Below, piece after piece: positions 2,113 through 38,640 of a stretch of 64,000 nt of DNA; within the stretch, counting starts at the first letter, position 1; every line of letters begins with the position of its first letter. This stretch comes from Mesorhizobium sp. RMAD-H1 (GTDB taxonomy: Bacteria; Pseudomonadota; Alphaproteobacteria; Rhizobiales; Rhizobiaceae). The stretch covers positions 124,001-188,000 of the forward strand of contig NZ_JACHWN010000003.1 of the NCBI RefSeq assembly GCF_014191375.1. The letters run 5' to 3'. The notes under the pieces were generated by a model. That model did not search any database. It had not been told where the DNA came from and saw nothing but the letters and a program-made list of their open reading frames with translations. The translations under genes and the position numbers were made by a program.

Positions 2113-3360
2113 ATGGCATTGAGCGACATCCTTATCGTCGGCGCCGGTCACGCCGGGTTTCATCTTGCGGCGGCGCTTCGCCAGGCAGGCTATAGCGGTC
2201 GGGTAAGGCTCATAGGCGACGAGCCGGGCCTGCCCTATCAGCGCCCGCCGCTGTCGAAAGCCTATCTCGCGCCGGACGCATGCGATGAAATGATCGAACA
2301 GCGACCACAGGCTTTCTTTGCGGACAATCGCATCGAGCTCGTCACGCCCAATAGCGTAATGGCAATCGACCGCGTGGGATCGGCGGTCGAGCTAGCCGGC
2401 GGACAGCGCATTGGCTATGATCATCTCGTCCTGGCCACGGGCGCTCGCAACCGGCAGCTTGCGGTGCCGGGCGCGGATCTGACAGGCATCTTCTATCTGC
2501 GGACGGCGGAGGATGCCCGGTGCTTGCGTGCGCGCCTCGAGACCTGCCGGCAGATCGTCGTGATCGGAGCGGGCTTCATCGGCCTCGAGTTCGCGGCGAC
2601 AGCCGCCAAGCGTGGCGCGCGGGTCACCATTATCGAGCAGGCGGAGCGGGTGATGGCCCGTGCGGTGTCGCCGGAAATGTCTGCCTGTTTCGAGCGGCTT
2701 CACAGAAGCTGGGGCACCGAATTCATGTTTGGATCGGGTGTTGCGGAAATCACTGGCAGGGACGGCGCGGTCGCGACGGTGGAAACCAGCGACGGGCACT
2801 CGATTCCGGCCGATCTCGTGCTCGTCGGCATCGGCGTCGTGCCCAATGCGGAGCTTGCCGCTGCTGCCGGCCTTCCTACCGACAACGGCATTCTAGTGGA
2901 TGCGACGATGGCGACGGCGGATCCGCATGTTTCGGCGATCGGAGATTGCGCCTCGCATCCGAACCCGTTCGCAGGCCGCTCCATACGGCTTGAATCGGTG
3001 CAGAATGCAAGCGATCAGGCACGCCTGCTGGCGGCCCGCCTTACCGGTCAAGCCTGTGCGCCCTATGCGGCTGTGCCGTGGTTTTGGAGCGATCAAGGCC
3101 CGGCCAAGCTCCAGATCGCGGGCATCGCCGCGCCAGGAGACGAGAGCGTGCTCCGGGGCGACCCTGACGAAGGAGCCTTCTCCGTCTTCCGCTTCCGTGG
3201 CGGCCGCCTCACCGCCGTTGAAAGCCTCGAACGGCCCGGTGACCATATGGGGGGGCGGCAGATGCTCGCCCGCAATATCCCCATCACTGCCGAGGAGGCG
3301 GCCGATCCTGCTTTCGACCTCAAGGTACTTCTGAAAGCCCTGCCGGCCGCCGCCGAATAA
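2113..3360 (+). CDS. NAD(P)H-dependent ferredoxin reductase (putidaredoxin-reductase type)
   Basis: A 415-residue FAD flavoprotein that passes electrons from NAD(P)H to the neighbouring ferredoxin. Domains: an N-terminal FAD Rossmann fold (DILIVGAGHAG), a sequence RPPLSKAYL typical of the family, a second dinucleotide fold for NAD(P)H (VVIGAGFIGLE) near residue 150, the GIGVVPN and AIGDCA motifs for FAD, and the C-terminal reductase domain carrying VPWFWSDQ. Length is normal for PdR/TerPA-type reductases (about 400-415). It lies 30 bp after the P450 and 26 bp before the ferredoxin, with a purine-rich AAGGGGA upstream of its ATG. Its role as the class I P450 redox partner is well supported by context; it could also feed the second P450 on the opposite strand. 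Confidence 0.93.
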   Translation: MALSDILIVGAGHAGFHLAAALRQAGYSGRVRLIGDEPGLPYQRPPLSKAYLAPDACDEMIEQRPQAFFADNRIELVTPNSVMAIDRVGSAVELAGGQRIGYDHLVLATGARNRQLAVPGADLTGIFYLRTAEDARCLRARLETCRQIVVIGAGFIGLEFAATAAKRGARVTIIEQAERVMARAVSPEMSACFERLHRSWGTEFMFGSGVAEITGRDGAVATVETSDGHSIPADLVLVGIGVVPNAELAAAAGLPTDNGILVDATMATADPHVSAIGDCASHPNPFAGRSIRLESVQNASDQARLLAARLTGQACAPYAAVPWFWSDQGPAKLQIAGIAAPGDESVLRGDPDEGAFSVFRFRGGRLTAVESLERPGDHMGGRQMLARNIPITAEEAADPAFDLKVLLKALPAAAE

Positions 3361-32629: not shown

Positions 32630-34219
32630 TCAGCTTTCCAGCCACACGCGGGTGGCGACGTAGCCGTTGGACATGTCGTTGCCGATATCGTGGACGTAGC
32701 CTTTCACGCTCTTGCTGGCGGCGTTCACGAAATCGTTGAACATGGGCAGGATCAGGCCGCCTTCATCGCGGACCATCATCGCCATCTCGCGATACATCTC
32801 CTTGCGCTTGGCTTCGTCCAGCTCGGCACGCGCCTCGTAAACCAGCTTGTCGAAATCCGGACGCTTGAAACGCGTGTCGTTCCAGTCGGCTGTCGAGAGA
32901 TAGGCGGTCGAATACATCTGGTCCTGCGTCGGCCGCCCTCCCCAATAGGAGGTCGAGAATGGCTGCACGTTCCAGACATTGCTCCAGTAACCGTCGCCGG
33001 GCTCGCGCTTGACCTCGATGTTGATGCCGGCCTTCTTGCAGCTTTCCTGGTAGAGGACCGCCGCGTCGACCGCGCCGGGGAAGGCGACCTCAGATGTACG
33101 CAAGAGCACCGAGCCGCTATGGCCGGACTTCTTGTAGTGGAAGGCGGCCTTGTCTGGATCATAGGCACGCTGCTCGATGCCTTCGGGGAAGAGGGCATAG
33201 GTTTCGTTGATCGGGAAATCATTGCCGATCTTGCCGTAGCCGCCGAGGATGCGCTGCACCATCGTCTCGCGATCCATCGCATATTTCAGCGCCAGCCGCA
33301 GGTCGTTGTTGTCGAACGGCGCCGTGTTGCAATGCATGATGAAGACATAGTGGCCGCGGCCCGGCGTATTGAGGATCTCCACCGTCGGCGCGCGTTTGAG
33401 GAGGTTTACCGTCTTCGGATCGACGCGGTTGATATAATGCACCTGGCCCGATGAGAGCGCGGCAATGCGGGCGGTCGCGTCGTTCATGCCGATGATTTCG
33501 ATCGAGTCCACATAGCCGCGGTCGGACCGCCAGTCACCGGGGTTCTTTTCGAAGGTGGCGCGCACGCCCGGCTCGAAGCTCGCGAGCTTGTAGGGGCCGG
33601 TGCCGATCGAGGCGCCGGGATCGTCGACGCCGCCATTGGGCTGGATGATCAGGTGATAGTCCGACAGGAGCAATGGCATGTCGGCATTGCCCTCGTTCAG
33701 CGTCAGCACCAGCTTGCCGCCGTCGGCCTTGATATCCTTGATCGATTTCAGGACGCCCAGCGCGCCGGATTCCGACTTCTCGTCGGTATGGCGCTTCAGG
33801 GTCGCCACCACATCGTCGACGGTGAGTTCCTTGCCGTTATGGAACTGTACGCCCTTGCGGATGGTGAAGGTCCAGGTCGCCGCATCGGCCGAAGGTTCCC
33901 AGGATTCGGCCAGTGCGGGAACCGGCGCGCCGGTATGCGGGTCGGATTCGACCAGCATGTCGCCCCAGCAGCGGCCGACGACGAACATGAACTGCGAGAG
34001 GAATTTCGCCGGATCCCGGGAATCGGTGGCAGCACCGCCCTCCAGGCCGAGTTTCAGATGACCGCCGCGCTTCGGCTCCTGGGCCGCAGCGCTTGCGGTG
34101 AAAAGCTGGCTTGCGGCTGTCAGCGTCAGCCCCGCGGCCATGGCGCGGCCCATGAATTCACGGCGGCTCATGCCGCCTGCCGTCACACGGCCGGCAAGAT
34201 ATTTCGTGTAATTGCTCAT
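32630..34219 (-). CDS. ABC transporter substrate-binding protein, SBP_bac_5 family, Tat signal
   Basis: A 529-residue periplasmic receptor of the peptide/nickel class. The N-terminus has a twin-arginine signal, SRREFMGRAMAAG, followed by a hydrophobic stretch and SAAAQ cleavage, so export is by Tat rather than Sec. The mature start PKRGGHLKLGLEGG is standard, and the family block WTFTIRKGVQFHNGKELTVDDVVATLKRH is near residue 115. AAGGA precedes ATG 34219. It is the first gene of the ABC operon. The 508-bp region upstream (34220-34728) contains its promoter but no recognised gene. Confidence 0.92.
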   Translation of the reverse strand: MSNYTKYLAGRVTAGGMSRREFMGRAMAAGLTLTAASQLFTASAAAQEPKRGGHLKLGLEGGAATDSRDPAKFLSQFMFVVGRCWGDMLVESDPHTGAPVPALAESWEPSADAATWTFTIRKGVQFHNGKELTVDDVVATLKRHTDEKSESGALGVLKSIKDIKADGGKLVLTLNEGNADMPLLLSDYHLIIQPNGGVDDPGASIGTGPYKLASFEPGVRATFEKNPGDWRSDRGYVDSIEIIGMNDATARIAALSSGQVHYINRVDPKTVNLLKRAPTVEILNTPGRGHYVFIMHCNTAPFDNNDLRLALKYAMDRETMVQRILGGYGKIGNDFPINETYALFPEGIEQRAYDPDKAAFHYKKSGHSGSVLLRTSEVAFPGAVDAAVLYQESCKKAGINIEVKREPGDGYWSNVWNVQPFSTSYWGGRPTQDQMYSTAYLSTADWNDTRFKRPDFDKLVYEARAELDEAKRKEMYREMAMMVRDEGGLILPMFNDFVNAASKSVKGYVHDIGNDMSNGYVATRVWLES

Positions 34220-34728
34220 TCCTTGTTCCTTCTCTGGTTGGCCCTTATAGCGCCCGGGCGCGTTGTTCTTTTATTCCGGGGCGAGCGGCGAAATTTGCGG
34301 AAAACTAACCGGCCGGGCTGCCAAATCAAAGCCTTGACGGCCTCTTTATCGCAGATTTCGCTTCAATTCGTGATCTGTCCCGTCCTCCTTTCCCGCTCCG
34401 ATCACCGGTTTTCAGGCATAGCCCGGCAACTCCGCCGCCATGGGAAATTGGCAGTGGATAAACCTGATTGTTGTGGAATTTTCACCCCGATAGGGGTCCG
34501 TGACAAGGTTATTCGTGGTGGCCGCCGCGCGGTCCATCATCGCTTCGGAGACGCCGTCAGTGCGGCGGATGCGGGTGGAATCGGTAAAATGGACATTGCC
34601 TTTCCGCCGGATCGGGCCCGCGACGACGCCTCGCCATCGCGCAGCACCATCGAAAATTAGTAACCCCTTTTCCCGCCTTGGAAGCTTCTGATGCGACATA
34701 TTCCGCCGCGCTTGCGACGTGGCGGATA
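34220..34728. other. Intergenic region without a recognised gene
   Basis: This 509-bp stretch separates the divergently oriented 5' end of the ABC operon from the 3' end of the kinase-like gene at 34729. A 95-codon minus-strand open frame (34412-34699) is present, but it has no recognisable domain and no good ribosome-binding site, so it was not called. The ABC operon promoter must lie in the 34220-34400 part. Nothing else was seen. Confidence 0.5.
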
Positions 34729-36249
34729 CTAGGGCCGTATGCCCAGTATTTCTGCGGCGATATCGGCTGGTTCGGGAGCCGCGTCGAGCTTGCGCCAGCT
34801 GACATCACGCGCATGCCTTTGGAGCTGCATCGACAGAATGTCGACCGTCGCGTCCGAAGGCCCGCCGGTGCGTTCGCTGACCCGCTGCCAGAGCACGGTG
34901 GGATCGGCTTCGAGCCAGACGCCGAGGAAGGGCAGGCTCCGATCGCGCGCCTGCGCTTCGATGCGCTTTCTGTCATCGGGCCTGTCGAAGACCGCGTCGG
35001 CGACGACGGAGCCCCCTTCGGAGAGGATGAGCCCGGTGCGCCAGGCCATCTCGCGATAGACCTTTACCGAAACTTCCGGCCGGTAGGCCCTCTCCGGCAG
35101 GCGGGTTTCCGGCGGCACGCCATGCATGGCCTTGCGGATGCGGTCGCTTTCCAGGATGCGGGCTCCCGGCGGTGCGCCGACACGTGCCGCCAGGGCTTCG
35201 GCTATGGTGGTCTTGCCGGAACCGCTCAGGCCCCCGATGGCGATGAGCCTCGGCGGGTGTTCGTGAAGCAGATCGCGGGCAAGATCGAAATAGGATCGCG
35301 CCTCGGCCGCGAGATTTCCGGATCGGCCGTCTCCTTCCTCGGCCTGTGTCGCGGTCACGTGCGCGCGCACCGCCGCCCGCACGGCCATGAACAAGGGCAA
35401 CAGCACGAAGCCGTCCTCGTCATCCGCCTCGTCGATGTAACGGTTCATCACCAGATTGGCGAGTTCCGGGAAGCCGCGGTGCCAGAGATCCATGAGCAGG
35501 AAGGCGAGATCATAGAGCACGTCGACCGTCGCGATCCGGTCGTTGAACTCGATGCAGTCGAAGAGACGCGGCTCGCCCTCGAGAAGGCAGATATTGCGCA
35601 GATGCAGGTCGCCATGGCAGCGGCGCACCTTGCCGGCCGCCTCGCGCCGGTCAAGCAGCGTCGCACGGAGGGCGAGCGCCTTGCGGAACAAGCCGTCGAA
35701 AGCCGCGATCTGAGCCTCGCCGAATAGATGGCTGGTCGAGAAGCCGGCCCTGTTGATATCAAGCACCGCCGCCAGGTTCGCAGCGCCGCCGGTCGCGTGG
35801 TTGACGGGCGCGGTGCGGTGGAAGCGGGCAATCATGCGCGCGGTCTCAGTCATCAACTCAGGCGTCAGGGTGCCGGCAAGCGCCATCCGGTCGAGCAGGG
35901 CCGATTGATCGAACCGCCTCATCTCGACCGCCGCGTCGACCAGGGTCCCCCGGCCATCGAAGGCGAGCCGTCCATCTTCCTCCCGTGTGATCCGCCTGAC
36001 GCCGCGATAAAGTCCGGGCGCCGTTTCGGAATTGAGCTCCAGCTCCTTCCGGCAGGCTTCGAGCCTCAGTTCCGGCGTCGAGAAATCGGCATAGGGCAGT
36101 TTCACCGCCCGCTTCATCTTGAACGCGCGGTCGCCGGCGAGAAAAATCCTGGAGATATGCGTCCCGATCGTCTCGACCGGTCCGGCGGTTTCGTGGCTGG
36201 CGGGATCCGCCAGGAAGGCGATTGCAGCCTGCTGGTCGTCGACGATCAT
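34729..36249 (-). CDS. Bifunctional aminoglycoside-phosphotransferase-like / P-loop kinase protein
   Basis: A 506-residue two-domain protein. The N-terminal part (about 1-330) is a phosphotransferase/choline-kinase-like fold: KMKRAVKLPYADFSTPELR, catalytic loop RRCHGDLHLRNICLL and metal-binding FDCIEFND. The C-terminal part (about 335-506) is a P-loop kinase, Walker A IGGLSGSGKTTIAEALA with a lid region RPDDRKRIEAQARD. This COG2187-COG0645 fusion is common in proteobacteria; its physiological substrate is not known and antibiotic resistance should not be assumed. It is a single gene; in many relatives it sits near stress or anaerobic genes, and here the FNR boxes lie on the other side of its start. 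Confidence 0.85.
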   Translation of the reverse strand: MIVDDQQAAIAFLADPASHETAGPVETIGTHISRIFLAGDRAFKMKRAVKLPYADFSTPELRLEACRKELELNSETAPGLYRGVRRITREEDGRLAFDGRGTLVDAAVEMRRFDQSALLDRMALAGTLTPELMTETARMIARFHRTAPVNHATGGAANLAAVLDINRAGFSTSHLFGEAQIAAFDGLFRKALALRATLLDRREAAGKVRRCHGDLHLRNICLLEGEPRLFDCIEFNDRIATVDVLYDLAFLLMDLWHRGFPELANLVMNRYIDEADDEDGFVLLPLFMAVRAAVRAHVTATQAEEGDGRSGNLAAEARSYFDLARDLLHEHPPRLIAIGGLSGSGKTTIAEALAARVGAPPGARILESDRIRKAMHGVPPETRLPERAYRPEVSVKVYREMAWRTGLILSEGGSVVADAVFDRPDDRKRIEAQARDRSLPFLGVWLEADPTVLWQRVSERTGGPSDATVDILSMQLQRHARDVSWRKLDAAPEPADIAAEILGIRP

Positions 36250-36507
36250 CCAGCGCTCCTTGAATGGATCATGCGGCTTCCAGCGGAAGCATTTTCGCCA
36301 GTGGAGAGCGCCGTGTCCTCCGTCCTTTCGCCTCGAGCTCCCAGGAGGCGCAAGAGCCGGAGGACAGCGGCGCGCCTGCCGCGCTTTCGCTGCGGGTCCG
36401 ATCCCATGGCATCGGCGAGGCTCCCACCCCTGCGGTTGTCGCCATGCTTCCGGTTCGGCCTTTTCGCGGCAAGCACATCATCGAAGCATTTTAGACGGTC
36501 TCTTTCG

Positions 36508-36521
36508 TTGATGAAGATCAA
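36508..36521. promoter_or_regulatory. FNR/FixK-type box 1 (TTGAT-N4-ATCAA)
   Basis: TTGATGAAGATCAA is a perfect match to the consensus operator of FNR-family oxygen regulators. Its centre is 35 bp upstream of the centre of a second perfect box. Doubled boxes are known in front of rhizobial hemN and fnrN genes. It would make transcription of the downstream hemN remnant and GNAT gene low-oxygen-inducible. Confidence 0.85.
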
Positions 36522-36542
36522 ACATGCGCGAAATCGCCCGTC

Positions 36543-36556
36543 TTGATGGAGATCAA
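36543..36556. promoter_or_regulatory. FNR/FixK-type box 2 (TTGAT-N4-ATCAA)
   Basis: TTGATGGAGATCAA, a second perfect FNR-type palindrome, 53 bp before the ATG of the hemN remnant. In doubled arrangements one box activates and the nearer one often limits expression; which does what here cannot be told without the transcription start. Confidence 0.85.
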
Positions 36557-36608
36557 CGAGGGAAGCATGCGGATCGGCCATCCTGCAACCATTGTGTGGA
36601 GCAAGGCC

Positions 36609-36800
36609 ATGTCTGACGATCCAGCAAGATTTTCCGCGTCGGTACTCCGTTACACGTGTTATCCGCCCGCTCCGCGGTTCGATCCCGGTGTGGCGGCGGA
36701 AGCCCATCGTGACTGGCTGGAGGCCCTGCCCGTCGGGCCATCCCTGTTGGAGCATATCCACATTCCCTTTGACAGCCATGACAGGAGAAAAACGAGATGA
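36609..36800 (+). pseudogene. hemN: N-terminal remnant of hemN (oxygen-independent coproporphyrinogen III oxidase)
   Basis: A 63-codon frame matching only the HemN N-terminus: RYTCYPPAPRFDPGV, then a segment WLEALPVGPSL, then HIHIPF, the strand that in HemN leads into the radical-SAM cysteines. At that point the protein changes to DSHDRRKTR and stops, so every 4Fe-4S ligand is missing and about 400 residues are gone. Two perfect FNR boxes lie upstream, as for genuine rhizobial hemN. The stop overlaps the GNAT start by 4 nt (ATGA), so the fragment may now serve as a leader for that gene (inference). A functional short peptide is possible but unlikely. Confidence 0.75.
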
Positions 36801-37366
36801 TGCCACAAGCCGAAATGGCCTCTCATTCCAGAGGCAAGGAGACGAGCACCGGTGACTGGAGCCGCAATCTGGCCACCCGCACGGGACTGTCGTTCAGTGT
36901 TCGTCCGGTCCGCACGGATGACGAGGCGGCGCTGGCGGAATTCTTCGCGCATGTGAAGCCGGAGGACCTGCGGTTCCGCTTCCTTGCGGGCATGAAGGCG
37001 GTGAGCCATGATCGGCTCGCCGCGATGACACAGGTCGATCATCGCCAGACCGAGAATTTTCTTGCCTTTGCCGAGGATGGCAGAACGGTCATCGCCACCG
37101 CCATGCTGGCCTGCGATCCGGCCTTTGAAAAAGGCGAGGTGGCGATCTGCGTGCGCGCGGCATACAGGCACAGAGGTATCGGTTGGGAGATGCTGCGCCT
37201 TGTCGCCCAATACGCGCAAGCAAAGGGAGTGAAAGTCCTCGAGTCGATCGAAAACCGCGACAATCATGAAGCGATCGAGCTCGAGCGGGAGCAGGGCTTT
37301 GTCGTGGCAAGCTATCCGGACGATCCGACCCTGATGCTGATAAGGAAGGAGCTTCGCCGGAACTAA
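36797..37366 (+). CDS. GNAT-family N-acetyltransferase downstream of FNR boxes
   Basis: A 189-residue GCN5-type acetyltransferase. After a ~30-residue polar head, the fold begins LSFSVRPVRTDDEAAL. The acetyl-CoA pyrophosphate loop is VRAAYRHRGIGWEMLRLVAQYA (R-x-x-G-x-G-type) and the end NRDNHEAIELEREQGF is standard. It most resembles the GNAT domain of Pat-like protein/amino-acid acetyltransferases. The ATG overlaps the stop of the hemN remnant, with AGGAG 9 nt upstream, so it shares the FNR-controlled promoter. The acetyl acceptor is unknown. Confidence 0.85.
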   Translation: MMPQAEMASHSRGKETSTGDWSRNLATRTGLSFSVRPVRTDDEAALAEFFAHVKPEDLRFRFLAGMKAVSHDRLAAMTQVDHRQTENFLAFAEDGRTVIATAMLACDPAFEKGEVAICVRAAYRHRGIGWEMLRLVAQYAQAKGVKVLESIENRDNHEAIELEREQGFVVASYPDDPTLMLIRKELRRN

Positions 37367-37395
37367 GGCGGCCGGGCCGGCAAGCCGGCGGCGGC

Positions 37396-37857
37396 TCATC
37401 CGTAAGTCCCGGTCAGCTCCGCTTCGGCCAGCATGCTGTCGCGCGCGGCCTCCCATATATCGAGCGCATCCGGCTCCGGGCTGATTTCCAGGTGGTCGAC
37501 GCCGAGGGCGGCGAGACGGAAACGGTAGGTATGCGGGGGCTCGCCGGGTTTGGGATCGGGACCATCATAATGGAGATTGCCGAAATCGTTGAAGCCGTGC
37601 GGCAGGTCCTCCGTGCGCGCCTTCGAACTGCGGCCCTCGGCCAGTTGCCGCCGGTCGCCCGGGATGTCGTAGACCGCCCAGTGCCGGAATGTCTGCGAAG
37701 GCGCATCCGCATCCTCCATCACCAGCACGTAGCTGCGCGTACCGGGCGGCGGATCCTCCCACAGCAGGAAGGGCGAGAGATTGGCGCCGCGCCGGGCGTG
37801 ACGTTCCGGAATGGGCTGGCCATTCTCAAAGGCGGGGCTGGTCAGGGTGAACGCCAT
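37396..37857 (-). CDS. PEBP / YbhB-YbcL family protein (Raf-kinase-inhibitor-like)
   Basis: A 153-residue phosphatidylethanolamine-binding-like protein. The ligand-site signature is visible: SPFLLWEDPPPGTRSYVLVMEDADAP, then HWAVYDIPGD, and the later GEPPHTYRFRLAALG. Function in bacteria is unknown; the fold binds small anionic ligands. ATG 37857 is preceded by GAGGAGATCGCC. It converges on the GNAT gene (29 bp apart) and is a single gene. Confidence 0.9.
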   Translation of the reverse strand: MAFTLTSPAFENGQPIPERHARRGANLSPFLLWEDPPPGTRSYVLVMEDADAPSQTFRHWAVYDIPGDRRQLAEGRSSKARTEDLPHGFNDFGNLHYDGPDPKPGEPPHTYRFRLAALGVDHLEISPEPDALDIWEAARDSMLAEAELTGTYG

Positions 37858-37951
37858 GGCGATCTCCTCATGCAAAGGCATTCCGAGCCATAGGCTCGAT
37901 ATCGTTGCTGGCCAAACCGGCGCGCGTGCATATTGTTCCGCAAAGGGAAAA

Positions 37952-37975
37952 TCCCCGGCCTTCGGAAAGGCCGGG
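37952..37975 (-). terminator. Rho-independent terminator of the padR-like gene
   Basis: A 10-bp perfect GC-rich stem, CCCCGGCCTT with AAGGCCGGGG, with a 4-nt loop. On the minus strand it is followed by ATTTTCCC, and it lies 29 bp after the PadR stop, as expected for an intrinsic terminator. Confidence 0.75.
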
Positions 37976-38004
37976 GACTTCCAAGGGCTTCAGCGCAGGG
38001 CTGA

Positions 38005-38640
38005 TCAGCCCAGGTCGATATCGTCAGGATCCTGCGGCAGGTTCCTGATCTCGTCAGCGGCCTTGCGCAGGATATCGGCCACCTTGCGCTGCGTTCCGGC
38101 AGAGGCGTCGAGCCGTTCGGCGAGCGCTGTCTTGAGGGCGCGCCGGGCTTCGTTCACCTCCGGCACCACCTCGGGAATATCCCGGTCGCGCCCGCGGCCT
38201 TCGCCACCCTCGAACCACTGGCGCGCGCGGGCCATGCGCTCGCCGATAAAGCGGATGCGGTCGAGCGCGGCATCCACCACCTTCCGGTTCTCCGCGAGAT
38301 AGGCGCGTCCCTCGTCGGTGATGGAATAGACCTTCTTGTTGCCGTCCGCGGAAGAGACGGCGTGGCCTGTCTCCTCGAGATAGGTCAGCGTCGGATAGAT
38401 CACGCCCGGGCTCGGGCTGTAGAAGCCGCTCGAATGCTCTTCCAGCGCCTTGATCACGTCATAGCCGTGGCGCGGCGCCTCTTCGAGCAAGGCGAGGACC
38501 ACGAGCCGCAATTCGCCGTCGCCGACGAAGCGCCCGAAGCCGCCGCCCATGCCGCGGCCGAAGCCGCGGGCAAAATGCTGGGAAAAACGGCGCGGTCCGA
38601 AATGGCGCTCGTTATGATGATGGCAGCCATAAGCATGCAT
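38005..38640 (-). CDS. PadR-family regulator with His-rich N-terminus (YqjI-like)
   Basis: A 211-residue PadR repressor. The first ~35 residues are rich in His, Cys, Arg and Gly (MHAYGCHHHNERHFGP...FGRGMGGGFGRF), recalling the metal-binding extension of E. coli YqjI. The winged HTH follows (ELRLVVLALLEEAPRHGYDVIKALEE, SPSPGVIYPTLTYLEETG, KKVYSITDEGRAYL) and a C-terminal helical dimer arm ends it. ATG 38640 has the strong site AAAGGAGG. Two palindromes upstream (38662, 38701) look like its own operators. It is divergent from an EamA exporter that it may also control. A metal or redox signal is inferred from the N-terminus only. Confidence 0.87.
   Translation of the reverse strand: MHAYGCHHHNERHFGPRRFSQHFARGFGRGMGGGFGRFVGDGELRLVVLALLEEAPRHGYDVIKALEEHSSGFYSPSPGVIYPTLTYLEETGHAVSSADGNKKVYSITDEGRAYLAENRKVVDAALDRIRFIGERMARARQWFEGGEGRGRDRDIPEVVPEVNEARRALKTALAERLDASAGTQRKVADILRKAADEIRNLPQDPDDIDLG

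Follow-up and report, generated by a model that had tools for sequence, protein, structure and literature searches.

How did the beginning of a hemN gene come to stand directly ahead of an acetyltransferase gene, and did its arrival bring that gene under oxygen control? The question was raised by a 64,000-nucleotide stretch of the Mesorhizobium sp. RMAD-H1 genome (contig NZ_JACHWN010000003.1, positions 124,001 to 188,000; hereafter the window, to which all plain positions refer). A previous reading of the letters (the sequence-only reading) had proposed that the deletion of most of a hemN gene fused its regulated promoter and translation start to a GNAT acetyltransferase gene, thereby creating a new low-oxygen-inducible GNAT. 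In line with the first part of this proposal, two exact copies of the palindrome TTGAT-N4-ATCAA (TTGATNNNNATCAA) were found ahead of the hemN stub. One begins at 36508 and the other 35 bp further on, at 36543, and both are identified as anaeroboxes (Table 1). They are the only sites in the window with at most one mismatch, and since this number was also reached in 40 of 100 shuffles, the bare box count in the window is not telling. Across the 5.14 Mb genome the exact motif occurs at 12 places, and the two copies ahead of the stub are the only ones lying less than 4 kb apart.

The surroundings of the boxes were compared with hemN-type loci. An anaerobox-like site was present 63–102 bp before the stub-aligned start in 25 of 34 loci, counting the window and its counterpart in the sister species Paramesorhizobium deserti, and a box of this form was missing in the other nine. 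When the 25 promoters were aligned on the box, offset 37 was A in 22, and 20 of them had T or C at offset 36, which is also the position of the hexamer most similar to TATAAT, with 32 bp between box centre and hexamer centre, the spacing expected of a class II FNR/FixK site. The window's CATCCT, a predicted but weak −10 element, sits at the conserved-A position with the same 32 bp between the centres, and the transcription start is predicted near 36591. Two full-length hemN genes were also preceded by twin boxes: those of genome G205 are separated by 35 bp and those of the congener G004 by 26 bp, the proximal G004 box agreeing with that of the window in every letter. Among the 21 boxed hemN loci scored (including L064, a broken hemN described below), a full second box at 35 bp was present only in G205, so the 35-bp spacing is no family rule. 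The assignment of the window promoter as hemN-like is supported by these alignments.

Table 1. Features of the locus, with positions in the window
Feature	Position	Strand	Basis or remark
Divergent kinase-like gene, APH + AAA_33, 506 aa	34729..36249	−	Marks the left edge of the module
Distal anaerobox, FixK/FnrN-type palindrome TTGATGAAGATCAA	36508..36521	+	Exact match; P. deserti counterpart TTGACGCGGATCAA
Proximal anaerobox TTGATGGAGATCAA	36543..36556	+	Exact match; P. deserti counterpart TTGACCGAAATCAA; position as in hemN promoters
Predicted −10 element CATCCT	36579..36584	+	Box-aligned promoters (n = 25); 3/6 match to TATAAT
HemN-derived part of stub, 54 codons to HIPF	36609..36770	+	tblastn and family HemN matches; P. 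deserti stub
Non-HemN stub tail DSHDRRKTR + stop	36771..36800	+	Same tail in P. deserti; L229 leader resembles it
GNAT acetyltransferase, 189 aa	36797..37366	+	Pfam; PDB matches; P. deserti ADH-GNAT
Junction zone	36802..36856	+	Start context of a host-attachment gene to the left and GNAT to the right, without the host-attachment and ADH genes themselves

The stub itself is a frame of 63 codons (36609–36797, with the stop extending through 36800), which matched the genome's own HemN at 42% over 45 amino acids (tblastn against a three-sequence database, E = 2e-8) and the top-ranking full-length HemN from the family search at 56% over 48 amino acids (E = 4.6e-14). As had been read from the letters, the similarity stops at HIPF (codon 54), before the radical-SAM cysteines; the final nine codons are not HemN-like, and the stub is without the radical-SAM cysteine motif and barrel of a functional HemN. 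Searches of Pfam at E up to 1 and of NCBIfam at E up to 0.01 gave no match. The overlap with the GNAT gene was likewise found as described, the stop codon TGA (36798–36800) running into the start codon ATG at 36797 (ATGA). This overlap is present in two species, and as a short predicted ORF overlapping the next start the stub has the form of a leader or coupler. RNA folding at the stub–GNAT junction was unremarkable (z +1.2 and +0.46), with no hairpin that would enforce coupling, and the single Rfam match around the locus remained under the gathering score (22.6 versus 70 bits, E 0.41). A narrow literature search found no published account of a truncated hemN leader.

The second species is P. 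deserti A-3-E, in which one locus (G002:C37) aligns with window positions 32687–36801 at 85%. It has the same divergent kinase gene, twin boxes 35 bp apart (TTGACGCGGATCAA and TTGACCGAAATCAA) and a stub of 63 codons whose tail DSHDRRKTR and ATGA are identical to those of the window. The gene overlapping the P. deserti stub encodes a 134-aa host-attachment protein (Host_attach/baeRF; PF10116 3.6e-24, baeRF_family12 4.5e-28), and it is followed by a single frame of 539 codons, ADH-GNAT, which joins a zinc alcohol dehydrogenase to a GNAT and has a box of its own (TTGATCCGGGTCAA). Open frames of 545–573 codons that hold both the GNAT and the zinc alcohol dehydrogenase were found in P. deserti (L075), G092, G404, G283, G375, G373 and G239, and represent an enzyme–acetyltransferase fusion that occurs in several genera. 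The blastn blocks shared by the two species end at 36801, just past the common start codon, and resume at 36857 inside the GNAT gene. Between GNAT and PadR, the window holds a PEBP-family gene (PF01161, 37396–37881) that has no P. deserti match between the two aligned blocks here. The codons of the stub tail run through the ribosome-binding region of the following gene (AGGAGA, 36783–36788), and a similar leader, gatgacaggagaag, precedes one other host-attachment gene, in L229; these two observations place the hemN break at codon 54–55, and the other side of the break was most likely the leader of a host-attachment gene.

Since the P. deserti stub precedes a host-attachment gene, the truncation of hemN and the stub–GNAT junction were separate events, and the hemN-derived control region is older than the junction. 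The simplest reading of the alignment is that the host-attachment and ADH genes were lost in the lineage of the window. P. deserti could also be the derived state, with the genes gained there, because solo GNATs exist too. A single deletion in a hemN-X-GNAT locus, which would have fused hemN promoter and start to GNAT and made the latter newly low-oxygen inducible, would explain why a hemN-like promoter and stub stand directly ahead of GNAT; however, GNAT in P. deserti follows a boxed ADH while the stub precedes another gene, and a one-step origin could stand only if the host-attachment and ADH genes had been inserted between stub and GNAT in P. deserti. With the units of the relatives (see below) also speaking against it, we regard this account as very improbable. 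What stands of the deletion proposed earlier is thus the hemN-like promoter and stub, and what falls is the single deletion joining hemN to GNAT.

The claim that a low-oxygen GNAT was newly created was not supported when related units were compared. Of 22 GNAT or ADH-GNAT units in relatives, 15 have the motif TTGAYN4RTCAA within 250 bp upstream and seven lack it there; the remainder of these loci predicts 0.033 sites per unit. Two of the GNATs have the same sequence, so that the units are not all independent. The statistic covers 22 of the 30 matched non-own genomes; omitted were the six weaker matches G405, G238, G232, G363, G372 and G077 (each with E 2.5e-32 or weaker) and, in addition, G392 and G322. 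Because most of these relatives already have a box, GNAT was probably part of a low-oxygen unit beforehand rather than newly put under oxygen control. ADH lies directly before GNAT in eight of the 22 relatives' loci (P. deserti included), and an anaerobox-like site occurs within 300 bp upstream in 17 of 30 host-attachment loci (P. deserti included; a count without background). On a Shinella plasmid, GNAT is located beside arcD/arginine deiminase, with an MBL hydrolase, a phosphoketolase and a phosphate acetyltransferase on its other side. The part of a Bradyrhizobium diazoefficiens study that covers cells at 0.5% O2 reports higher levels of proteins annotated as host attachment (bll5315, bll4645), of proteins annotated as GNAT (bll6068, bll1906) and of HemN1/2, which were compared with the window genes by annotation name (PMC6515984). 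Table 2 of that study marks bll5315 and the two HemN proteins as FixK2 targets but not the GNATs, bll6068 among them; bll6068 is close by number to phaC2 (bll6073) (PMC6515984). The anaerobox motif and hemN as its target appear in print (in parts of PMC7888657 and PMC4999443), and the main text of the latter, a regulon paper, contains neither the word acetyltransferase nor alcohol dehydrogenase.

The distribution of the stub was surveyed with several queries. Among 297 family genomes, 195 of which matched the stub, two carried a stub of this type among the matches listed; the stub–GNAT arrangement was therefore not one conserved across many genera, a pattern that would have spoken against the earlier proposal. 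Weaker stubs may lie among the matches beyond those listed. The 30 loci inspected from this search comprised the two stubs, 27 hemN genes of 435–455 codons and one hemN broken in frame (L064 in G140, another genus), where hemN matches lie in two frames with a gap, perhaps through hemN decay or an assembly error. Three further short-frame matches among those listed were inspected, two of which run off a contig end. The third, in G074 (L292, G074:C58:191000-196000, about 2468–2797, minus strand), has hemN codons 1–92 fused in frame to codons 425–450; it is an independent internal hemN deletion in another genus, without an anaerobox, and differs from the window stub. A stub was found in two of six genomes of the genus survey and in one (P. 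deserti) of the 80 kinase loci inspected from 570. The host-attachment protein search covered 394 genomes, of which 67 matched at 1e-25, and 30 loci were inspected: none of the 29 other than P. deserti had a hemN match in its flank (up to 1.5 kb), and none of the loci inspected had an intact hemN directly before the host-attachment gene. An intact ancestor, which had been expected in close relatives, was thus not encountered in the loci inspected, and P. deserti has the same stub. The congener G005 is without 34723–38004, the blocks ending at 34722 and starting at 38005 lying 119 bp apart, and in the other four genomes of the genus nothing matched the kinase at 1e-30, which marks the kinase–stub–GNAT module as a local insertion or loss. 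A plasmid search gave 80 matching records, none covering more than 80% of the query; promoter and stub were absent from the best ten of these 80, whose matches begin within GNAT or shortly behind its start.

The explanation that we favor overall, and consider probable, is a transplanted hemN control region followed by a later loss that put GNAT at the restart position. Before the window's species and P. deserti separated, a twin-box hemN promoter with the first 54 hemN codons would have become joined to a host-attachment gene (baeRF/Host_attach) at its ribosome-binding site, and this gene would have headed a unit with ADH-GNAT. The hemN fragment would have persisted as a short leader ORF with its stop overlapping the next start, an ATGA arrangement in which ribosomes ending the leader can restart on the following gene. 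The lineage leading to the window would later have lost the genes for host attachment and dehydrogenase, leaving GNAT at the point of restart. When oxygen is low, a regulator of the FixK type is envisaged to occupy the proximal box, around −41.5, and to activate leader and GNAT, while the distal box may tune this promoter or serve the divergent kinase.

Whether the leader itself matters was addressed by comparing the two stubs, which share 76% amino acid identity over 63 codons with 0 indels and differ at 30 nucleotides (8/6/16 by codon position). Codon maximum likelihood gave an omega of 0.38 (p = 0.017, one species pair) for all 63 codons and 0.42 (p = 0.038) for the first 54; the two shifted and three antisense frames were not significant, among them one antisense frame with omega 0.47 (p = 0.09). 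In a neutral simulation of the 54 hemN codons, the 15 amino acid changes observed compared with 18.2 +/- 2.2 (p = 0.11). The Nei-Gojobori ratio was 0.28 for the stub versus 0.07–0.16 for three neighbouring genes (Fisher test on the counts p = 0.004, a statistic that ignores transition bias), and eight gaps between the species were counted by eye in the non-coding stretch of about 360 bp beside the stub. Judged from this one species pair, the stub frame looks kept under modest constraint, looser than that on the neighbouring genes. An inert remnant, in which the 5' region persists only for the promoter and the next ribosome-binding site, would share the promoter history favored above and differ solely on the leader. 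That the stub is short and without a family match, that its tail is a ribosome-binding site and that the simulation leaves the amino acid constraint insecure all fit such a remnant; the frame that stayed open with no indel in 63 codons, against eight gaps in the adjacent non-coding DNA, and the omega value in the true frame do not, and we give this reading real but less than even weight. It is quite unlikely that the 54-residue HemN fragment is itself a selected small protein and not merely a coupling leader, with a role, for example, in contacting HemN/coproporphyrinogen and so tying heme supply to the low-oxygen unit. Selection on the stub peptide would mean that a piece of an enzyme had been retained after the rest of its gene disappeared.

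The divergent gene left of the boxes encodes a kinase-like protein (Pfam AAA_33 8.2e-19, APH 3.6e-8) with an ortholog in the same place in P. deserti (86%). Among 80 kinase loci, that of P. deserti being one of them, 27 had an anaerobox-like site within 450 bp upstream (a count without background), and the two halves of the locus diverge from the boxes, as would suit a two-way switch in which the distal box acts mainly for the kinase and the proximal box for the GNAT side. However, about 260 bp separate the distal box from the start of the kinase gene, versus about 70–80 bp in many boxed relatives, and twin boxes occur before full-length hemN too; such a division of labour, which would be compatible with the other readings, appears rather unlikely. 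The non-coding block upstream of the kinase (intergenic region 36250–36507), which is partly conserved in P. deserti, present as a single copy in the genome and without an Rfam match, contains an inverted repeat (TGTCCTCCG / CGGAGGACA, 36314–36366) and could be a kinase mRNA leader.

A gene for a Crp/Fnr-family regulator that we take to be FixK-like adjoins a boxed, presumably fixN-like gene in the window's genome; at this locus (G000:C3:461757-468932; L008, L009, L252), boxed genes that we take to be nirK-like and fixN-like lie on either side of the regulator gene. This FixK-like protein is the probable regulator of the window promoter. No clear FNR cysteine cluster was seen by eye in four proteins read among 25 HTH_Crp_2 matches, and L255, an HTH_Crp_2 match, has a CxxC pair near its N-terminus. 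The intact hemN sought elsewhere in the genome was located at G000:C9:115824-117167, and a second, weaker match of the hemN model is presumably HemW-like. The intact gene has no anaerobox of the TTGAT-N4-ATCAA form; a TTGAG-N4-CTCAA palindrome precedes the intact hemN of both species instead (L079 9229–9242; L251). A Crp/Fnr-family gene lies about 6 kb from the intact hemN in the window's genome.

The GNAT gene product contains an Acetyltransf_1 domain (PF00583, E = 2.9e-10, 40.9 bits versus a cut-off of 20.7), matches the C-terminal part of the P. deserti ADH-GNAT at 78% and groups with it as sister in the GNAT tree (support 99/96). All five PDB matches at E ≤ 0.01 (9it0, 9isq, 4nxy, 4u5y and 3f8k) are named protein acetyltransferase or acyl-CoA synthetase, with E about 1.5e-12 for 9it0/9isq, and the NCBIfam Pat model matched weakly (34/460 bits). 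By these similarities, the protein is a relative of the Pat-type protein acetyltransferases in their GNAT domain and a putative protein lysine acetyltransferase.

Promoter evolution as such is well documented. The present locus would be an example of rewiring in a probable low-oxygen regulon, in which a whole control region together with a coding leader moved before another unit. Through a later change, a gene from further downstream would have come to stand first, apparently without leaving the regulon. It also counsels caution: a stub–gene junction seen in a single genome need not mean gained regulation.

Among known systems, the Pat-type protein acetyltransferases (PDB 4nxy, 4u5y, 9it0, 9isq and also 3f8k) resemble the window protein over the GNAT domain; unlike them, neither the stand-alone GNAT of the window nor the ADH-fused GNAT of P. 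deserti has an acyl-CoA synthetase part. The fnrN promoter of Rhizobium leguminosarum also has two boxes close together, at −34 and −2, and the part of the source describing them assigns activation to the distal and repression to the proximal box (PMC7888657). Its boxes are 32 bp apart as against 35 bp in the window, whose proximal box lies at the position of the single box of hemN promoters, which makes activation by the proximal box more likely; an fnrN-type arrangement in the window is possible and fits the hemN pattern less well. With the FixK/FnrN-regulated hemN promoters of rhizobia the window shares the motif, the distance of the proximal box to the start, a HemN N-terminus immediately downstream and, for its predicted −10 element, the class II position, whereas its hemN breaks off after codon 54 and gives way to other genes. 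The low-oxygen units of Rhizobiaceae (ADH, GNAT, host-attachment, USP, phosphoketolase, arc) have the GNAT family and the boxes in common with the window, but a hemN-derived promoter and leader were found only in the window's genome and in P. deserti.
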